DNA from: Candidatus Atribacteria bacterium 1244-E10-H5-B2 | Lineage (GTDB): Bacteria > Atribacterota > JS1 > SB-45 > 34-128 | NCBI GenBank assembly: GCA_003575245.1 | Contig: NMQN01000628.1 | Coordinates: forward strand, 1-7,198 | Direction of reading: 5' to 3' | Length of the DNA: 7,198 nt | Shown here: positions 230 through 7,198 of the stretch, one piece after another | Layout: each line of letters starts with the position of its first letter | Position numbering within the stretch: position 1 is the first letter of the stretch | The notes under the pieces: model-generated | What the model saw: only the letters and a program-made list of their open reading frames with translations | What the model was told of the DNA's origin: nothing | Database searches by the model: none | Translations under genes and position numbers: made by a program

Positions 230-856
230 ATGTTAATTGATAAAAAAGTCAGTAATTTTTTAGATGAATTAGCTTCTAATTCACCAACTCCTGGCGGAGG
301 TAGTGTGGCTGCATTAGCCGGAGTACTGGGAGCAGCTTTGATTTCTATGGTAGGTAATTTAACTATTGGTAAAAAGAAATATAAAGATGTGGAAGAAGAT
401 TTTAAGAAAATTATAAGTTCTTCGGAAAAATTGCGCTATGAATTAAGTCAGTTGATAGAAGAGGATGTTAAAGTATTTAATAATTTTATGGCTACTTACA
501 AGATGCCTAAGGAAACTGAAGATGAAAAAAAGATAAGAGCAGAGAAAATACAAAAATCACTAATTGAGGCAGCAAAGGTTCCCCTTAAAGTAGCTTACAA
601 ATGTCTGGACATACTGAGTCTTTCTAAAGAAGTTGCTGAAAAAGGTAATATTAATGTGGTAAGTGATGCCGGAGTCGCGGTCTTAATGGCAGAAGCAGCA
701 TTGGAGAGCGCCATATTAAATGTGAAGATAAATCTGAGAATGATTAAAGATGAGAAAATAAGAACGGAACTTTACTCCTCTATAAAAGAAATCTTATTAA
801 AAGAAAAAGGACAGAAAGAAAAAGTGTTGAAAATGGTGGAGGGGAAAATAGGATAA
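230..856 (+). CDS. fchA: Cyclodeaminase/cyclohydrolase family protein (FchA-like methenyl-THF cyclohydrolase)
   Basis: This 208-residue protein is a stand-alone member of the formiminotransferase-cyclodeaminase C-terminal family. That family closes or opens the folate-bound one-carbon unit: formimino-THF to methenyl-THF plus ammonia, or methenyl-THF to 10-formyl-THF. Seen in the sequence: the family's N-terminal signature S-P-T-P-G-G-G-S at residues 18-25, followed by an Ala/Gly-rich helix; a charged helical middle; and the conserved K-G-N...S-D-A-G-V-A segment at residues 138-150 before a final helix. The length matches single-domain family members, and the formiminotransferase half is absent. 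The protein should be cytosolic and all-helical. The start is set by a strong AAGGAGG site. No folate partner gene lies next to it in the window; the next gene is 473 bases away. The family call is firm. The choice between cyclohydrolase and cyclodeaminase activity cannot be made from sequence alone. Confidence 0.88.
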   Translation: MLIDKKVSNFLDELASNSPTPGGGSVAALAGVLGAALISMVGNLTIGKKKYKDVEEDFKKIISSSEKLRYELSQLIEEDVKVFNNFMATYKMPKETEDEKKIRAEKIQKSLIEAAKVPLKVAYKCLDILSLSKEVAEKGNINVVSDAGVAVLMAEAALESAILNVKINLRMIKDEKIRTELYSSIKEILLKEKGQKEKVLKMVEGKIG

Positions 857-925
857 AAAAATTGTTTAAAGACGAGAGTGTATCAAAAAATATAGAGTAT
901 CTAAGTAAAATGGCAGAAAAACCAG

Positions 926-966
926 AGGGTTAGTTGTATTTTTAAAATATATCTAACTCTATTTTA
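926..966 (+). terminator. Possible intrinsic terminator after fchA-like gene
   Basis: AGGGTTAG at 926-933 pairs with CTAACTCT at 953-960 (eight pairs, one of them G-U). The loop between them is AT-rich and can itself pair (TATTT with AAATA). The stem is followed by ATTTTATT, a broken T-tract. It lies 70 bases after the stop codon. The stem is weak and the T-tract interrupted, so this is only a candidate. Confidence 0.35.
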
Positions 967-1018
967 TTGTATGCTCTAAAAAGTAAAGAAAAAATATTAA
1001 ATATTTTTTAAAAAAAGC

Positions 1019-1050
1019 TGGACTTTTCAAATTTATTTATGTAGTATGAT
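1019..1050 (+). promoter_or_regulatory. Weak sigma-70-type promoter candidate for the rpiR-type gene
   Basis: A -10-like TATGAT lies at 1045-1050. Upstream are TGGACT at 1019-1024 (spacer 20, too long) or GACTTT at 1021-1026 (spacer 18, a poor -35). An A-tract precedes it. It sits just before a perfect inverted repeat, as a regulated promoter would. A 5' leader of about 270 bases would result. The support is composition and position only. Confidence 0.22.
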
Positions 1051-1066
1051 AGATAATAGATGGATA

Positions 1067-1105
1067 AATTGCATTAAAAAAAATAATGATGCAATTCTTG
1101 CATTA
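1067..1105. promoter_or_regulatory. Perfect inverted repeat, possible operator
   Basis: AATTGCAT at 1067-1074 and ATGCAATT at 1089-1096 form a perfect 8-base inverted repeat with a 14-base AT-rich spacer. A third half site, TGCATTA, follows at 1099-1105 and copies the TGCATTA at 1070-1076. The arrangement lies just downstream of the candidate -10 element and upstream of the regulator gene, which is where an autoregulatory site would be. There is no T-tract after it, so it is not a terminator. The binding protein is unknown; the RpiR-type protein encoded at 1330 is the obvious candidate. Confidence 0.35.
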
Positions 1106-1162
1106 CTATCACTGTTTAATAATTTATATTTACTGTATAGAAATTTCCTTTTTCCGTAATCC

Positions 1163-1275
1163 CTGTTTTAGTAGATACTCGCTTAGCAAGGCAAGCAAAA
1201 GGCAGTAAAACAGAGAGGGAACAATTCATTGTGCCCCTACAAAAGAAAAGTAGAGGCACAGCGTGCCGTGTCTTC
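1163..1275. repeat. Cluster of overlapping extragenic palindromes
   Basis: Several inverted repeats are packed together. CTGTTTTA (1163-1170) pairs perfectly with TAAAACAG (1206-1213). GGGAACAAT (1217-1225) pairs with ATTGTGCCC (1228-1236) with one mismatch. GTGCCCCTAC (1231-1240) pairs with GTAGAGGCAC (1250-1259) with one mismatch around a nine-base A-rich loop. GGCAC (1255-1259) pairs with GTGCC (1263-1267). The middle arms are shared, so these structures exclude one another. The segment is more GC-rich than its surroundings. It resembles the dispersed palindromic repeats with CCCCTAC ends that are common in intergenic DNA of many environmental bacteria. No transposase is present. Confidence 0.6.
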
Positions 1276-1286
1276 TTGTACTAAAG

Positions 1287-1312
1287 ACTATTCACTATTC
1301 ACTAACGACTAG
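1287..1312. repeat. Short tandem CTATTCA-type repeat
   Basis: The words CTATTCA, CTATTCA, CTAACGA and CTAG follow one another directly at 1287-1311, giving a seven-base periodic stretch just before the ribosome binding site of the next gene. It is not part of any coding frame. It is probably a degenerate intergenic repeat. Confidence 0.45.
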
Positions 1313-1329
1313 TTTTAGGGAGAGATAAG

Positions 1330-2202
1330 TTGAATCCTGAAAAAGAGAAAAATTATATTGATTTACCATCACGCATAAAAGATAATTTTAAAAAATTCAG
1401 CGAAAGCCAAAGATTAATTGCTACATATTTATTGAGAAATTATGATAAAGCTACATTTTTTACTGCCGCTAATTTAGGGAAGGTAGTAGGAGTTAGTGAG
1501 TCTACTGTTGTAAGATTTGCTGATTTTTTAGGCTACGAAGGTTATCCCGCTTTACAAAAAGACTTACAGAATAGAATCAAAAATAAATTAAACACTGTTA
1601 GCCGACTAAAAAAATCCATAAAAATAGCTAACGGTGGGGAAAGTATTTTATACGAAGTTTTCCGTAATGATATTGATAATATCCAAAAAACTATGGACAA
1701 TATATCTAAAGAATCTTTTAATAAATTAATAGAAGAAATGTTGAATGCAGATTCTGTATATATTGTCGGTCTTCGAACCGCTACCTCTTTAGCTTATTTC
1801 ATGGGATATACCCTCCATTTGATTTTGAGAAATGTAACCACCATAACTTTTGGAGTTAGTGATCTCTTTGAAAGGTTGATTAACATAAATGAAAAAGATC
1901 TGATAATAGGCATTACTTTCCCTCGATATACTCTGCAGACTGTGGAAATTATGGAATATGCCAAAAAGAAAGGAGCAAAAACAGCTGCTATTACCGATAG
2001 TGTATTATCTCCTTTAGCCCAATTAGCTGATATAAGTGTATTTGCTAATAGTAATTTAAATTCTTTTATTGATTCTTTTACCGCACCTTTGAGTTTAATA
2101 AATGCTTTGGTAACTGCAGTCGGAGTAAGAAGAAGAAAAGAGAACTTAGAGTCTTTATCTGAATTAGAAGAAATTTGGGAAAAATATAAAATATTTTATT
2201 AA
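1330..2202 (+). CDS. MurR/RpiR-family transcriptional regulator (HTH + SIS domain)
   Basis: The protein has 290 residues, the usual length for the RpiR family. Residues 12-80 form the N-terminal HTH_6 domain. The helix-turn-helix covers about 45-66, with recognition helix S-E-S-T-V-V-R-F at 56-63 and the typical L-G-Y-x-G-Y-P tail at 67-73. Residues about 125-255 form a SIS domain, which in this family binds a small effector, usually a sugar phosphate. Here the usual S-x-S-G-x-T phosphate loop is replaced by I-T-F-P-R-Y-T-L-Q-T (195-204), and the first loop reads G-L-R-T-A-T-S (147-153). The effector may therefore not be a sugar phosphate. The start is TTG, supported by AGGGAGA at 1317-1323 a few bases before it. 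The KamA-like gene follows after 90 bases with no clear terminator between, so the two may be cotranscribed. It probably controls the downstream enzyme and transporter genes; that role is inferred from position. Confidence 0.9.
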   Translation: MNPEKEKNYIDLPSRIKDNFKKFSESQRLIATYLLRNYDKATFFTAANLGKVVGVSESTVVRFADFLGYEGYPALQKDLQNRIKNKLNTVSRLKKSIKIANGGESILYEVFRNDIDNIQKTMDNISKESFNKLIEEMLNADSVYIVGLRTATSLAYFMGYTLHLILRNVTTITFGVSDLFERLININEKDLIIGITFPRYTLQTVEIMEYAKKKGAKTAAITDSVLSPLAQLADISVFANSNLNSFIDSFTAPLSLINALVTAVGVRRRKENLESLSELEEIWEKYKIFY

Positions 2203-2270
2203 GATTTATATTGTAAAATTCTTCTAACTCAACATTAAAGAGACAAAAATTATAAACAAATTATTTTTTG

Positions 2271-2280
2271 GAAAGGGGAA
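2271..2280 (+). promoter_or_regulatory. Ribosome binding site of the KamA-like gene
   Basis: GAAAGGGGAA lies 12 bases before the ATG at 2293. The purine tract is G-rich but is not a perfect Shine-Dalgarno sequence, and the spacing is on the long side, so initiation may be moderate. No better in-frame start is visible nearby. Confidence 0.5.
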
Positions 2281-2292
2281 AAAGAAATTAGA

Positions 2293-4122
2293 ATGAGCAA
2301 GAGCTTAATTGAAAAGCTATGGAGAGAAAATCCAGAAGTTTTTAAACTATTAAAGGAATGTGAGGATTTAAAAGAAGCAAGAAAAAAACTTTTTAAATTT
2401 TCTAGAGACTTAGAATGGAAATATAGAGAAGGAGAAGAAGTTTTACATAAATTAGAATATGCTACCGCATTAGAAGCGATAAAGGCATTCAATAACCTTA
2501 TTTCTCTTCGAAATGAGAAGATTGCTGGTTTTAGCACTTTAGATTATTTATGGAGTCTTGCTAAAGATAATCAAGAGATAACTGAAGGAATTAGCGAAGG
2601 TTTTTTAGAAGAATTTATTCATCTTTTTGAAGCAATGAAAGGAAAGGCGGATATTTCTTCAGGATGGCTAAGGCCATTACTGGAAAAAGATGGTGTTAAA
2701 ATAGTGGACTTTACTAAAATTAAAGGGAGAGAAGCAGGGATATCTCGTTCTAATTATTTAGACAAACTGTACGAAAAAGTTCATAATTTTATTGACCGTT
2801 ATCCTTTTGGATGTGATGATAAACTGATTAAGGAAAGAGAAGAAAATCGTCAGAAAATATTAGATTATTTTGGAGCAACTATAAACGACTGGAACGACTA
2901 CCATTGGCATCTGAAACACATATTCCAAGATGAGGATGATTTAGAAAATCTCAAGAAATTAGTTCCTCTCACCGAGGAAGACATCAAAGCTATTAAGATT
3001 GCTATTGAAAATAAAATACCTTTTGGGATTATCCCTTACTATCTTTCTTTGTTCGATTTTTCCCGCAGTGATCGAAAAAATGATTACCAAGTAAGGTCCC
3101 AAGTCATTCCCCCTATACACTATGTAACTTTAATGAAAGAACATCGTAAAGAAAGGTCATATTACTTTGATTTCATGGGTGAACATGATACTTCACCGGA
3201 AGAATTAATTACCAGAAGATATCCCATGATATCTATTCTAAAACCTTATGATACTTGTCCGCAAATTTGCGTTTATTGTCAGAGGAATTGGGAAATAACT
3301 GGACCAATGATGCCCGAAGCAGTACCCAGCAAAGAATCATTAGATATAGCTTTAAACTGGTTTGCCAAACATACTTCCATGAAAGATGTGTTAATTACTG
3401 GTGGCGACCCCTTAGCCTTAAATTATGATCGGATAAAATATATAATGGATAGATTGTGTCAGATGGAACATGTGATAAATATAAGGTGGGGTACTAGAAC
3501 TCCGGTAACTGTTCCCATGAGAATAACAGATAAATTGGCTAAATTGATTGGAAGTTATATAGAACCAGGAAAAAGAAATGTTTGCATAGTAACTCATATT
3601 GAGAGTTCATCTGAAGTTACTCCAGAATTGGCTGAGGCAGTGATGAAGTTTAGAAAACAAGGAATATATGTTTATAATCAATTAGTATATACCCTGGAAA
3701 CCAGCAGAAGATTTCAAAATGTAGCAGCGAGGATAGCGATGAAGAAGGCAGGAGTAGACCCTTATTATACTTTTTATCCTAAAGGAAAAGAAGAAACCGA
3801 AGATTATCTTGTCCCCGTTGCTCGTCTGTGGCAAGAGAGAAAAGAGGAAGCAAGATTAATACCTGGTATTTTTCGAACCGATGAACCGGTATTTAATGTT
3901 CCTCGTTTGGGCAAAAATCATGTAAGAGCGTGGCAAGATAGAGAATTAATTGCTCTCAACAAGGAGGGGAGGAGAATTTATTTATGGCACCCCTGGGAAA
4001 AGGGTATAGCTTCTGTTGAGCCATATATATATAAAGATCTCCCCATTTATAAATATCTTCAAGAGCTAGCGAAGAGAGGAGAAGATATCGAAGAATACAA
4101 GTCAATTTGGTACTACTATTAA
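2293..4122 (+). CDS. KamA-family radical SAM aminomutase, long form, glutamate 2,3-aminomutase-like active site
   Basis: KamA enzymes use a 4Fe-4S cluster, S-adenosylmethionine and PLP to move an alpha-amino group to the beta position. The radical SAM motif C-P-Q-I-C-V-Y-C gives cysteines 322, 326 and 329 (CX3CX2C). Arg331 follows at the position of the LAM carboxylate-binding Arg134. I-T-G-G-D-P, near residues 370-375, matches the family's SAM-contacting loop. P-R-L-G-K (537-541) aligns with the PLP lysine loop, so Lys541 is the likely Schiff-base residue. The two aspartates that bind the lysine side chain in LAM (Asp293, Asp330) align with Lys497 and Asn535, matching what I recall for glutamate 2,3-aminomutase. 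The LAM-like region starts near residue 194 (D-W-N-D-Y-H-W). Residues 1-190 are an extra helical domain; LAM itself is about 416 residues. No cysteine follows residue 440, so the C-terminal zinc-site cysteines of LAM are missing. The substrate is inferred and not proven. Confidence 0.85.
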   Translation: MSKSLIEKLWRENPEVFKLLKECEDLKEARKKLFKFSRDLEWKYREGEEVLHKLEYATALEAIKAFNNLISLRNEKIAGFSTLDYLWSLAKDNQEITEGISEGFLEEFIHLFEAMKGKADISSGWLRPLLEKDGVKIVDFTKIKGREAGISRSNYLDKLYEKVHNFIDRYPFGCDDKLIKEREENRQKILDYFGATINDWNDYHWHLKHIFQDEDDLENLKKLVPLTEEDIKAIKIAIENKIPFGIIPYYLSLFDFSRSDRKNDYQVRSQVIPPIHYVTLMKEHRKERSYYFDFMGEHDTSPEELITRRYPMISILKPYDTCPQICVYCQRNWEITGPMMPEAVPSKESLDIALNWFAKHTSMKDVLITGGDPLALNYDRIKYIMDRLCQMEHVINIRWGTRTPVTVPMRITDKLAKLIGSYIEPGKRNVCIVTHIESSSEVTPELAEAVMKFRKQGIYVYNQLVYTLETSRRFQNVAARIAMKKAGVDPYYTFYPKGKEETEDYLVPVARLWQERKEEARLIPGIFRTDEPVFNVPRLGKNHVRAWQDRELIALNKEGRRIYLWHPWEKGIASVEPYIYKDLPIYKYLQELAKRGEDIEEYKSIWYYY

Positions 4123-4220: not shown

Positions 4221-4243
4221 GTGAATTTTAAAAAATTAAAAAA

Positions 4244-4249
4244 TGGAGG
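4244..4249 (+). promoter_or_regulatory. Ribosome binding site that decides the TAXI start
   Basis: TGGAGG lies seven bases before the ATG at 4257. It rules against the in-frame GTG at 4221, which has no upstream Shine-Dalgarno sequence and would add 12 charged residues ahead of a normal signal peptide. Confidence 0.8.
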
Positions 4250-4256
4250 TACTGAA

Positions 4257-5204
4257 ATGAAGAAATCTTTAAGCATAATATTAATGGTTAGTTTATTGGT
4301 ATTTTTGTTTTCCGGGATTAGTTTAGCTGTTACTCATATTACTTTTGGAACTGGCAGCCCAGGAGGTGTTTATTATCCTCTGGGTGGGGCAATGGCTGAT
4401 CTCTGGACTAAATTGTTGAAAGCAGAAGGGATTGAAGTAACCGCTGAATCAACCGCAGCATCAGTAGAAAATTGTAGATTGACAGGCAGTGGAGAAATTC
4501 AGATTGGAATGGCAATGGCTAGTGTTTCATTCAAAGCTTATGAAGGTATAGTACAATTTGAAGGGAAGCCACAATCTATTCTGGGTCTATTTTCTATGTA
4601 TCCGGCACCCCAACATATTTTAACTTTAGATCCCAATATTAAATCTATTAGAGATTTAAAAGGAAAGAAAGTTTCAGTAGGTGCCCCGGGAAGCGGAAAC
4701 GAAACTATATCGAAACTGCTTATTGAAACCGCCGGTTTAACTTATGATGATATGACAGTCAGTTATTATTCTCAACCTGAAGCAGCTCAAGCTTTAAAAG
4801 ATAGGAATGTAGATGTGGTATTTTGGAATTTCGCTTACCCTGGTTCTGCAGTACAAGAAGTGACTGCAGTAAGAGATGTATATTTTGTATCAGTAGATGA
4901 TGACATTCTTAAAAAATTGATTGCGGAATTTCCTTACTATCAAGAGGGTAAAATACCCGCTAACACCTATAAGGGACAAGATTATAATGTTACGACTGTT
5001 CAGGATGGAAATGATGTGGTCGTAAATAAAGATCTTGACGAAAATACTGCATATTTATTAGTAAAAACACTATTTGAAAATGCTAAAGAAATACATAATG
5101 TCCACCCCGTTGCGAAACTATTAATTCCCGAAATTGGTGTAAGGACCGTTACCCCACTTCATCCTGGTGCAGAAAAATACTTCAAGGAGAAGGGATTACT
5201 TTAA
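4257..5204 (+). CDS. TAXI-family TRAP transporter solute-binding protein
   Basis: From the ATG at 4257 the protein has 315 residues, typical for the TAXI family. Residues 1-24 form a signal peptide: M-K-K-S, a hydrophobic core to about 18, then S-G-I-S-L-A with likely cleavage after Ala24. There is no lipobox cysteine, so the mature protein should be free in a periplasm. It starts with the family hallmark I-T-F-G-T-G-S-P-G-G-V-Y-Y-P at 28-41. Further TAXI features are T-A-A-S-V-E-N (near 65-71), the lobe-two segment D-L-K-G-K-K-V-S-V-G-A-P-G-S-G, and the A-L-K-D-R-N-V-D-V-V-F-W segment. It captures a solute and hands it to the membrane subunit encoded downstream. Known TAXI ligands include glutamate and glutamine, but the ligand here cannot be read from sequence. 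The stop codon overlaps the next start by one base (TAATG). A terminator-like hairpin follows at 5215-5257. Confidence 0.93.
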   Translation: MKKSLSIILMVSLLVFLFSGISLAVTHITFGTGSPGGVYYPLGGAMADLWTKLLKAEGIEVTAESTAASVENCRLTGSGEIQIGMAMASVSFKAYEGIVQFEGKPQSILGLFSMYPAPQHILTLDPNIKSIRDLKGKKVSVGAPGSGNETISKLLIETAGLTYDDMTVSYYSQPEAAQALKDRNVDVVFWNFAYPGSAVQEVTAVRDVYFVSVDDDILKKLIAEFPYYQEGKIPANTYKGQDYNVTTVQDGNDVVVNKDLDENTAYLLVKTLFENAKEIHNVHPVAKLLIPEIGVRTVTPLHPGAEKYFKEKGLL

Positions 5205-5710
5205 TGTTTAGTAGAATAATCAGGGGAACCTTTATGGTTTCCCTGATTATTTTTTTTATTATCACGATTTTATATTTTATAAATAAAGAAAATAATCAGA
5301 CACAATATTATTTAGAGATTATTAACAGAAAAAATGATTCTATATTGGTCAAAATTGAAGTTGCTGTTGGTGATAAATTTTATTTGGAATATTTAAATTC
5401 AACAGATTTAAATCCAGTATTTGATACTTTTGAAATAAAAGAAGAGGGAATATTTTGTTTGCTTACTGAGGAATATCCTTGGTATGGGGTGGGACAGGAA
5501 TGCCACGCTTCTAAGGATATAGAATTTACAGATAAATTGGTAATAGTAAATGTAAATAGAGAGATGGAAAAACTTTCCCTGCGAGTAGCTTTTACCGTAG
5601 AGCAAAAGATAAGACATAAAGAGAGAGAATTTATTCTATCTTCTTTAACTGATAGAGGAGATCCTGTAGATATAATTATTGCTGTTGAAGGAGGCATGAA
5701 TGATAAGTAA
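5204..5710 (+). CDS. DUF1850 domain protein of the TRAP operon
   Basis: This 168-residue protein fits the DUF1850 family, which is regularly encoded between TAXI binding proteins and fused TRAP permeases and has no established function. Residues 10-27 form one hydrophobic segment, a membrane anchor or uncleaved signal. The rest is soluble and probably extracytoplasmic. Family-like features are F-Y-L-E-Y-L-N-S-T (59-67, where many members have His-Ser-Val), P-V-F-D-T-F-E-I (71-78) and Y-P-W-Y-G-V-G (91-97). Two starts are possible: ATG 5204, which overlaps the upstream stop and suggests translational coupling, and in-frame ATG 5234 (Met11), preceded by AGGGGAA. The 5' end contains a strong hairpin plus U-tract that also encodes the membrane segment. 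The 3' end overlaps the permease start by 11 bases. The protein may help assemble or gate the transporter; that is inference from context. Confidence 0.82.
   Translation: MFSRIIRGTFMVSLIIFFIITILYFINKENNQTQYYLEIINRKNDSILVKIEVAVGDKFYLEYLNSTDLNPVFDTFEIKEEGIFCLLTEEYPWYGVGQECHASKDIEFTDKLVIVNVNREMEKLSLRVAFTVEQKIRHKEREFILSSLTDRGDPVDIIIAVEGGMNDK
5215..5257 (+). terminator. Intrinsic terminator-like hairpin inside the start of the DUF1850 gene
   Basis: The stem 5215-5230 pairs with 5236-5251 over 16 positions: 15 Watson-Crick pairs plus one G-U (5226 with 5240). The loop is TTTAT. The right arm runs straight into eight T residues (5250-5257). This is the textbook form of a Rho-independent terminator, 10 bases after the TAXI stop codon. 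It lies within codons 4-18 of the DUF1850 frame. It probably reduces transcription into the membrane-subunit genes, or stabilises the 3' end of the binding-protein message. Confidence 0.75.
5688..5694 (+). promoter_or_regulatory. Ribosome binding site of the TRAP permease gene
   Basis: AAGGAGG lies inside the end of the DUF1850 gene, five bases before ATG 5700. It supports that start and rules out ATG 5696, which is the DUF1850 frame itself, as the permease start. Confidence 0.8.
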
Positions 5711-7198
5711 AGAAAAAGAAGATTTACAGACTGATAAAGAAGAGAATTACGAAATTGAAGCAAAAGTTGATGAGAAAGTACTAAAAGAAATAGAAGAGAT
5801 TGAGACCAAAAATAAAAGAGATTTATCCGGTTTATGGTCTCTTCCTATTCTAATTGCTTCTATCGGATTATTTATTTTTCATATGTATACCGGATGGTTT
5901 GGAGCATATTTTAGTTTAATCCAACGTTCTATCCATTTTATGTTTATCTTAACTTTAACTTTTTCTCTTTTTGCCCGTAGTAAAAAAACTCCCAGAGATA
6001 AAATACAATTTTATGATTTGATATTTATTGGCATATCTATAATTTTATGTTATTACATACTGACTAATTATAAAGAGTTAGTCTGGCGAGCGGGCGCTGC
6101 AAATCCCATGGATGTTTTTTTAGGAGTTATTTTGGTCTTACTTACTTTAGAAGCAACCCGAAGAGCAGTAGGTCTTCCTTTAATGTTAGTGGCAGTATTT
6201 TTTCTTTTATATGCCTTAGTCTTTGGACCTTATATGCCGGGAAGGTTTTCTCATGGAACCTTTTCTATAAAGAGGGTAGCCTATTATCTTTATCTTACCG
6301 ATGCGGGAATATTCGGGACTCCTTTAGGCGTTTCAGCGAGTTTTGTCTACCTCTTTATTTTATTTGGAGCTATATTAAATAAGACTGGAGCAGGTAAATT
6401 TTTTATTGATTTTGCAACTGCCCTTACCGGATATACCAGAGGTGGACCAGCAAAAGCTGCAGTAGTTTCCAGTGGTATGATGGGGACTGTATCAGGTAGT
6501 TCTACTGCTAATACAGTTACTACCGGTAGTTTTACTATACCTTTAATGAAAAGTATAGGGTATAGCCCGGTCTTTGCTGGGGCGGTAGAACCAGTTGCCT
6601 CCACTGGTGGTCAGATAATGCCCCCCATTATGGGGGCTGCAGCCTTTATTATGGCTGAATTTTTAGGAGTTCCTTATATTGAAATTGCTAAAGCGGCAAT
6701 TTTCCCTGCCTTATTTTATTATTTTGCCTTATTTATGGCTGTAGATTTTAAGGCCGCAAAAATTGGTTTACGCGGCCTTTCCAGAGAGCAGCTACCCAAT
6801 CTATTAAAAACTTTAAAGACAGGATGGATTTTGTTAGCTCCCATCTTTGCTTTAATTTATTTATTGGTTCAAGGTTATTCCCCACAAAAATCAGTAGTGC
6901 TTAGTATTGTAGTATTAATTATAGTTAGCATGTTTAGTAAAAAAACCAGACTAACCCCGAAGAAATTTTTAGAAGCTATAACTGAAGCAGGTGTTTCTGC
7001 TACTACGGTAGCGGTAGCTTGTGCTGCAGCAGGAATAATTGTTGGAATTACTACTATGTCGGGATTAGGACTAAAATTTACCGGAATCGTATTTGAAGTT
7101 TCGCGGGGGATTTTACCTATCGCCTTAATCTTGGCTTCTTTAGCTTCTTTGGTCTTGGGAATGGGGGTACCTACTACCGCTAACTACATTATAATAAC
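5700..7198 (+). CDS. TRAP transporter fused permease subunit (4TM-12TM, DctQ-DctM fusion), partial at 3' end
   Basis: The frame runs from ATG 5700 to the window edge with 499 complete codons and no stop. Fused TAXI permeases are commonly over 600 residues, so roughly a quarter is missing. Residues 1-42 are a highly charged cytoplasmic tail rich in Glu and Lys. Hydrophobic segments at about 46-66, 76-92, 105-122, 138-150 and 158-177 fit the small-subunit (DctQ-like) part. The large-subunit part follows from about 205. It carries the family signature G-M-M-G-T-V-S-G-S-S-T-A-N-T (259-272), E-P-V-A-S-T-G-G-Q-I-M-P-P-I-M-G (297-312) and the second-half repeat G-M-G-V-P-T-T-A-N-Y (487-496). TRAP permeases drive import of the solute held by the binding protein using an ion gradient, usually sodium. 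The gene overlaps DUF1850 by 11 bases and has a strong internal Shine-Dalgarno site, so the three transporter genes form one coupled unit. Confidence 0.95.
   Translation, partial: MISKEKEDLQTDKEENYEIEAKVDEKVLKEIEEIETKNKRDLSGLWSLPILIASIGLFIFHMYTGWFGAYFSLIQRSIHFMFILTLTFSLFARSKKTPRDKIQFYDLIFIGISIILCYYILTNYKELVWRAGAANPMDVFLGVILVLLTLEATRRAVGLPLMLVAVFFLLYALVFGPYMPGRFSHGTFSIKRVAYYLYLTDAGIFGTPLGVSASFVYLFILFGAILNKTGAGKFFIDFATALTGYTRGGPAKAAVVSSGMMGTVSGSSTANTVTTGSFTIPLMKSIGYSPVFAGAVEPVASTGGQIMPPIMGAAAFIMAEFLGVPYIEIAKAAIFPALFYYFALFMAVDFKAAKIGLRGLSREQLPNLLKTLKTGWILLAPIFALIYLLVQGYSPQKSVVLSIVVLIIVSMFSKKTRLTPKKFLEAITEAGVSATTVAVACAAAGIIVGITTMSGLGLKFTGIVFEVSRGILPIALILASLASLVLGMGVPTTANYIII

Follow-up and report, generated by a model that had tools for sequence, protein, structure and literature searches.

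In E. coli, REP sequences, a dispersed repeat found in intergenic DNA, form hairpins between malE and malF that stabilise the upstream RNA, and in leader-peptide attenuators such as those of pyrBI and trp a terminator lies near a stop codon and its strength can depend on the ribosome. Stem-loops that follow the binding-protein gene of clostridial ABC operons terminate between 20.7 and 96.1% of transcripts, those of the U-rich type I above 90%, in the part of PMC9045158 that deals with them. The behaviour of a terminator placed inside a gene is described in sections of PMC4824070, which also name pyrBI: an artificial terminator 30 bp past the start of a second E. coli ORF lost about 10% of its efficiency to translation of that ORF; with the upstream stop codon 5 rather than 28 bp ahead of the terminator, efficiency fell from about 90% to below 10%; and at about 27 nt the repression had faded. 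The same sections describe ribosome rescue for a similar construct with non-stop RNA.

The window analysed here, by which we mean the whole stretch of 7,198 nucleotides from an Atribacteria bacterium, carries on its forward strand a TAXI-type TRAP solute-binding protein gene (NMT1_3; 4257..5204; Pfam PF16868, E 3.3e-78 on the ORF 4221-5204), a DUF1850 gene (5204..5710; PF08905, E 5e-7) and a DctM-type TRAP permease gene (5700..7198; PF06808, E 3.7e-76) that runs off the window. We infer the binding-protein start, ATG 4257, from homologue lengths; the stop TAA occupies 5202-5204, and the DUF1850 ATG begins on it at 5204, giving a TAATG overlap. Close homologues with a named source come mostly from Atribacteria/Atribacterota, a largely uncultured group of bacteria. 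A promoter scan of the window gave 29 sites against 28.1 in shuffled sequence, with no excess from which a separate permease promoter could be judged, and a scan of viral contigs with DUF1850 gave no relative. Upstream, at 230-4122, lie genes for a cyclodeaminase-like FTCD_C protein, an RpiR-type SIS regulator and a 609-aa radical SAM protein, plausibly a context of amino-acid catabolism.

Direct reading and folding identify an 18-pair hairpin at 5213-5253 that runs into a tract of eight T residues. The stem starts 8 bases 3' of the binding-protein stop, or 10 bases if its 16-pair core is taken. The first-pass annotation had described this core correctly (5215-5230 with 5236-5251, including one G-U), and its five-base loop, eight T residues and 10-base spacing can all be read directly; one G-U and one A-U pair extend the stem to 18. 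The purine-rich 5' arm (5213..5230) encodes R-I-I-R-G-T, the loop TTTAT occupies 5231..5235, and the 3' arm (5236..5253) together with the T tract encodes V-S-L-I-I-F-F, so that the hairpin falls in codons 4-17 of DUF1850. The T tract (5250..5257), a putative RNA-release site, overlaps the stem foot and forms the Ile-Phe-Phe codons. The folding energy, a check proposed at that first reading, is -26.0 kcal/mol (shuffled mean -8.6, sd 2.2; z -7.8), and 0 of 200 shuffles did as well. Eight terminator-like sites were found in the window (shuffle mean 3.3), among which the hairpin ranks first with 18 pairs against 5-6 in the other seven. It has the form of an intrinsic terminator on the coding strand, namely a stem containing G+C with a T run immediately 3', and on the reverse strand no T run lies beyond the stem. 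The T8 tract at 5250-5257 is also longer than five U, as are the tails of type I clostridial terminators in the account given in part of PMC9045158. An Rfam search with E up to 1 gave a single weak match, elsewhere in the window and not at the hairpin. In one fold of 251 nt the minimum-energy structure retains only the upper 9 pairs, and the lower stem and U tract pair instead with sequence further on; the centroid retains the longer stem. The 5'-arm sequence AATAATCAG at 5215-5223 recurs 76 bases on, at 5291-5299, where it could pair with the 3' arm, and this downstream partner is not conserved in more distant relatives.

Recoding, covariation, synonymous constraint and amino-acid entropy together indicate that the hairpin is no by-product of the protein codons. 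When codons were replaced synonymously at random according to local usage, none of 1000 trials attained the native fold at nine of ten Atribacterota loci; at the other (L092) 10 of 1000 did. Covariation was measured over ten junctions (the window, L081, L082, L083, L084, L086, L087, L091, L092 and L093). They represent the window and all but one of the ten phylum genomes in which a close homologue of DUF1850 occurs; the one left out, G005, has no junction. Pairing holds in 96.6% of 174 cells, as against 47-65% in slid controls, and 8 of the 18 pairs have changed on both sides (1-2 pairs in slid controls); the covariation score was reached by 0 of 500 shuffles and the number of further pair types by 15 of 500, in an alignment whose ten sequences are related and whose structure was drawn from the window. 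At L086, L087, L092, L093 and the window, both the stem sequence and the encoded residues vary and pairing is kept. Among six closer loci, codon pairs for the same residue differ synonymously in only 9 of 165 cases in the stem and U codons, compared with 469 of 1754 elsewhere in the gene, and this is the lowest value of 133 comparable windows. Across 90 aligned homologues, including the protein of the window (three of the 93, of 140 residues or shorter, were left out), amino-acid entropy is 0.08 bits in the 3' arm and U tract, 1.46 bits in codons 9-11 at or around the loop, the most variable of six stretches measured, and 1.03 bits in the rest of the membrane segment, which is itself predicted from hydrophobicity. 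Conservation ends near the borders of the hairpin rather than those of the helix. The proposal made at first reading that compensatory changes would keep the stem thus held when tried, with the encoded residues varying, and coding overlap and covariation bear out its picture of a terminator-like hairpin lying inside the next gene and coding twice.

Of the 90 aligned DUF1850 proteins, 56 carry M at position 1, ahead of the hairpin, and 33 are annotated as starting in the hairpin loop, a warning that start-site annotation may go astray. We rejected the loop ATG (5234) as a general start because 13 of the 90 proteins carry T, K, I or A at position 11, residues that ATG, GTG and TTG cannot encode.

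A uniform scan for hairpins with z>3 in the 133 nt from the upstream-gene stop found them at 10 of 10 group A junctions, every one with at least 6 T in 8; at 13 of 20 junctions of a second, paralogous Atribacterota TAXI-DUF1850 system; and in other bacteria at 24 of 30 loci below 50% GC and 22 of 40 above. With other settings the second Atribacterota system gave 11 of 20, all 11 ahead of the point where the DUF1850 frame opens. Control positions inside the upstream gene gave 2 of 127, and a separate junction scan of named loci found a hairpin at 53 of 78. The archaeal loci, which are the 30 best matches from a search of 294 genomes in the phylum to which L008 belongs (52 of the genomes had one), gave 1 of 27 (0 of 27 with other settings); they are mostly GC-rich, so that the z-score has less power there, and their upstream ORFs were taken by size with binding-protein identity assumed. 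As the upstream gene we generally took the closest ORF with 230 codons or more, likewise by size; in the Bacillota-type scan described below, 150 codons sufficed for an ORF truncated by the end of its locus. Loci without such an ORF (3 of 30 archaeal, 2 of 75 Bacillota-type) were left out. The junction scans exclude L005/L085, whose contig has no junction, and L009, where the binding-protein gene continues into that of the permease; the uniform scan also excludes L008 and, for being too short, one of the 71 named loci. Binding-protein ends of the DctP type in nine of these genomes carry a hairpin at 16 of 30 loci (30 of 73 matches).

The gap from stop to hairpin is 5-10 nt in group A and wider elsewhere, many of the relatives' junction hairpins have no good U tract, and the DUF1850 start may come before, at or after the hairpin. 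The constant feature is the position relative to the upstream stop, and the hairpin is therefore tied to the end of the binding-protein message. Several loci whose hairpin formally lay inside an ORF (L010, L012, L019, L038, L039, L068, L070 and others) have an untrustworthy upstream-most start and were not used for embedding; the DctP locus L145, whose following ORF formally spans the hairpin, has an ATG with a purine tract beyond the hairpin and was not scored as embedded.

Some of these loci are of interest in their own right. The paralogous Atribacterota TAXI junctions L096, L099, L101-L105 and L108 carry stem-core variants CCGGGTACC...GGTACCCGG that differ from the core of the window, CAGGGGAACC. 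In L008 (from 1834 onward), an Archaeoglobaceae MAG, a binding protein 64% identical to that of the window is followed by DUF1850 with a T-rich stretch in place of a hairpin (z -0.8), reflecting either gene transfer with loss of the hairpin or a mis-binned contig. The binding-protein gene runs in frame into the middle of DUF1850 around position 4900 of L005, and into the permease gene around 939 of L009; these fusions are either deletions or assembly errors. Finally, of 24 loci selected by eye, 20 (L020, L022, L024, L029, L030, L047, L205, L206, L210, L215, L220, L222, L224, L226, L241, L244, L249, L250, L252 and L278, of which L249 looks like the same contig as L020) have a Shine-Dalgarno-like tract ending 1-9 nt before the hairpin and the DUF1850 ATG 0-10 nt after it, a layout in which folding would join the two and which might form a hairpin-bridged ribosome site.

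Coding overlap recurs in Bacillota-type genomes. From the phylum and class to which the genomes with L026 and L033 belong (Bacillota) we collected 75 DUF1850 loci, 35 from searches and 40 by region; a large upstream ORF is present in 73, of which 45 have a hairpin with z>3. Of these 45 hairpins, 19 lie inside the DUF1850 ORF with no ATG, GTG or TTG left between the hairpin and a point 45 codons before the DUF1850 domain, 9 lie where the DUF1850 frame is closed, and for 17 a start level with the hairpin or beyond it is still possible or none was found before it. Among the 19, L201, L202 and L203 are the earlier loci L026, L034 and L033 and several of the 19 are close relatives of one another, and among the 75 L249 and L269 also appear to repeat L020 and L038, so the two sets of loci are not independent. 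The native fold was attained by no more than 1 of 500 recoded trials at L025, L026, L033 and L034 and by no more than 11 of 300 at the 16 of the 19 that are not earlier loci, with 0 to 11 of 300 in the family of L266, L270, L272, L273, L275 and L276. In this family 2 of 14 pairs have changed on both sides, a number equalled by 144 of 500 shuffles, and the covariation score was equalled by 10 of 500. A TAATG overlap of the start with the upstream stop occurs in L266, L272 and L279; in L270, L273 and L276 the start is 2-3 nt past that stop. Several of the 19 have T-rich tails; the family of L033, L034, L217, L238 and L256 has no T tract. In eleven examples picked by eye, mean hydropathy is -1.54 in the 5' arm and +2.44 in the 3' arm and tail, with L266 and L279 as exceptions in the 5' arm, where the window is near zero.

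The hairpin was also set against its genomic background, 400 kb from four Atribacterota genomes with mechanically called ORFs. Close same-strand junctions carry a hairpin in 5 of 171 cases, of which 3 are TAXI binding-protein ends (genes read by eye), and wider same-strand gaps in 4 of 94; convergent gene ends do so in 1 of 32 (z>3), and in 0 of 32 when a T tract is also required. There are 11 strong hairpin-plus-T sites in the 400 kb, and the 2 that lie near a same-strand ORF start are both at DUF1850 homologues. Rho scored over its cut-off in 41 of 50 phylum genomes, and tmRNA did so in 38 of 50. With few hairpins at convergent ends and Rho so frequent, intrinsic termination may therefore not be routine in these organisms. 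Of nine genomes searched for the stem core motif, seven contain it, at 10 sites in all and at most three per genome, and six of the sites are this junction; such low counts mean that it is no widely dispersed repeat. Elsewhere in one genome, two identical short palindromes resembling the stem core, CAGGGGAATAGCTTCCCCTG, lie 154 bases apart (G006:C105:38356-38375 and 38510-38529).

Our preferred model, which we hold with moderate confidence, is that the selected hairpin and U tract terminate transcription intrinsically but leakily and also protect the 3' end, keeping the binding protein in excess of the permease. According to the model, RNA polymerase leaving the binding-protein gene would form a hairpin of 13-18 bp and pause on the T8 tract; by analogy with U-rich type I stem-loops, most transcripts would end at 5250-5257, and the hairpin would also shield the 3' end of the terminated binding-protein RNA. 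A minority would continue into DUF1850 and the permease gene, and the soluble binding protein would therefore outnumber the membrane part. The TAATG overlap leaves no intergenic room, and for this reason the terminator would be written in the signal-anchor codons of DUF1850, its purine-rich arm yielding Arg/Gly/Glu and its pyrimidine-rich arm and U tract Val-Ser-Leu-Ile-Ile-Phe-Phe. The hairpin site is accordingly supported as a place where the ratio of binding protein to permease could be set, as the first-pass annotation had envisaged. The archaeal polymerase is not known to use hairpin terminators; the near-absence of the hairpin from archaeal loci fits termination, though RNA decay differs there too.

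Several points count against termination. RNA ending within DUF1850 has no stop codon for ribosomes that re-initiate at 5204, which is a cost of the arrangement, and the re-pairing of the lower stem in the longer fold also speaks against a terminator. By analogy, so does the repression of an E. coli terminator this close to a translated stop, in the sections of PMC4824070 that report it. The same sections make it doubtful that, as had been suggested at first reading, ribosomes starting at 5204 melt the hairpin and permit read-through, since translation of the second ORF cost only the roughly 10% mentioned above. Should transcription and translation be coupled in these organisms, the ribosome that completes the binding protein would be the likelier modulator, because the gap is only 8-10 nt and the E. 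coli data show such dependence on stop distance. We suggest, tentatively, that stop-start coupling of translation and attenuation of transcription work together in such operons, that RNA ends within the ORF may need ribosome rescue, and that this would be a dedicated use of intrinsic termination by Atribacterota that otherwise barely employ it.

A serious rival, which we nonetheless consider unlikely to be the main explanation, is that the hairpin acts chiefly as a 3'-end barrier to which downstream ends left by Rho or an endonuclease are trimmed back, with little intrinsic termination, so that the binding-protein RNA would be long-lived and the permease RNA not. Its standing comes from the scarcity of hairpins at the ordinary gene ends sampled, the presence of Rho, and U tracts that are weak in many lineages even though the placement after the stop is the same; for the many relatives with poor U tracts, 3'-end protection fits better than termination. 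Stem energy is moreover linked to transcript stability in part of PMC9045158. A barrier of this kind, however, has no need of the T8 tract at the stem foot or of the T-rich tails found throughout group A, although Phe and Ile codons are T-rich anyway, and it would be melted by translation of DUF1850. The two functions can both be true. It is considerably less probable that the hairpin mainly limits translation of DUF1850, by covering either codons 4-17 close to the start or the loop ATG (5234) with its purine tract. The stem does begin 9 nt after the A of the ATG, AGGGG sits 7 nt upstream of the loop ATG, and other lineages place the hairpin between a Shine-Dalgarno-like tract and the ATG; against this, the hairpin tracks the binding-protein stop at 5-10 nt in group A and not the DUF1850 start, the position-11 residues that no start codon encodes disfavour the loop ATG, and a T tract would be superfluous. 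That the hairpin is a chance by-product of AT-rich signal-anchor codons or a mobile palindrome is very improbable, since the 3' arm and T tract are indeed natural codons for a hydrophobic helix but recoding, covariation and synonymous constraint are all contrary, and the motif counts rule out a mobile palindrome.

Among the matches listed in our literature search, no terminator embedded in coding sequence after a binding-protein gene was reported, and in the collection searched no paper mentions DUF1850 and none mentions Atribacterota together with transcription termination. What is new here is the coding overlap with selection at the RNA level evident from sequence, the extension to TRAP operons, the contrast between bacteria and archaea, and the recurrence in other lineages. 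The locus offers a naturally selected case in which one sequence serves as terminator-like hairpin and signal anchor, and covariation separates the constraint on RNA from that on protein. Moreover, it would extend to the TRAP operons of several bacterial groups the hairpin-set stoichiometry of binding protein and permease known from ABC operons, and makes testable how a terminator within an ORF copes with ribosomes and non-stop RNA.

Compared with the described systems, the hairpin resembles the malE-malF REP in lying past a binding-protein gene, where it would favour the upstream RNA, and differs from it in that the stem is not widely dispersed, lies in coding sequence and has a T tract. Like the pyrBI and trp attenuators, it sits near a stop codon and may have a strength that depends on the ribosome; unlike them, it separates structural genes, and no leader peptide was seen. 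The artificial terminator of PMC4824070, tR2 in the first 100 bp of an E. coli second ORF, is alike in its place within a downstream ORF of an operon and in the non-stop RNA predicted from terminated transcripts, but from the sections describing it that construct is man-made and not dual-coding by selection, whereas the arrangement in the window is natural and conserved. The internal terminators of clostridial ABC operons, as part of PMC9045158 presents them, share with the hairpin a single long stem just past the binding-protein gene and before the genes for membrane components. Those terminators, however, are intergenic and their termination was measured; here, in a TAXI-TRAP operon, intergenic placement is absent, the hairpin lying within the DUF1850 ORF from 5204, where it codes twice and would terminate transcription in a similar manner.
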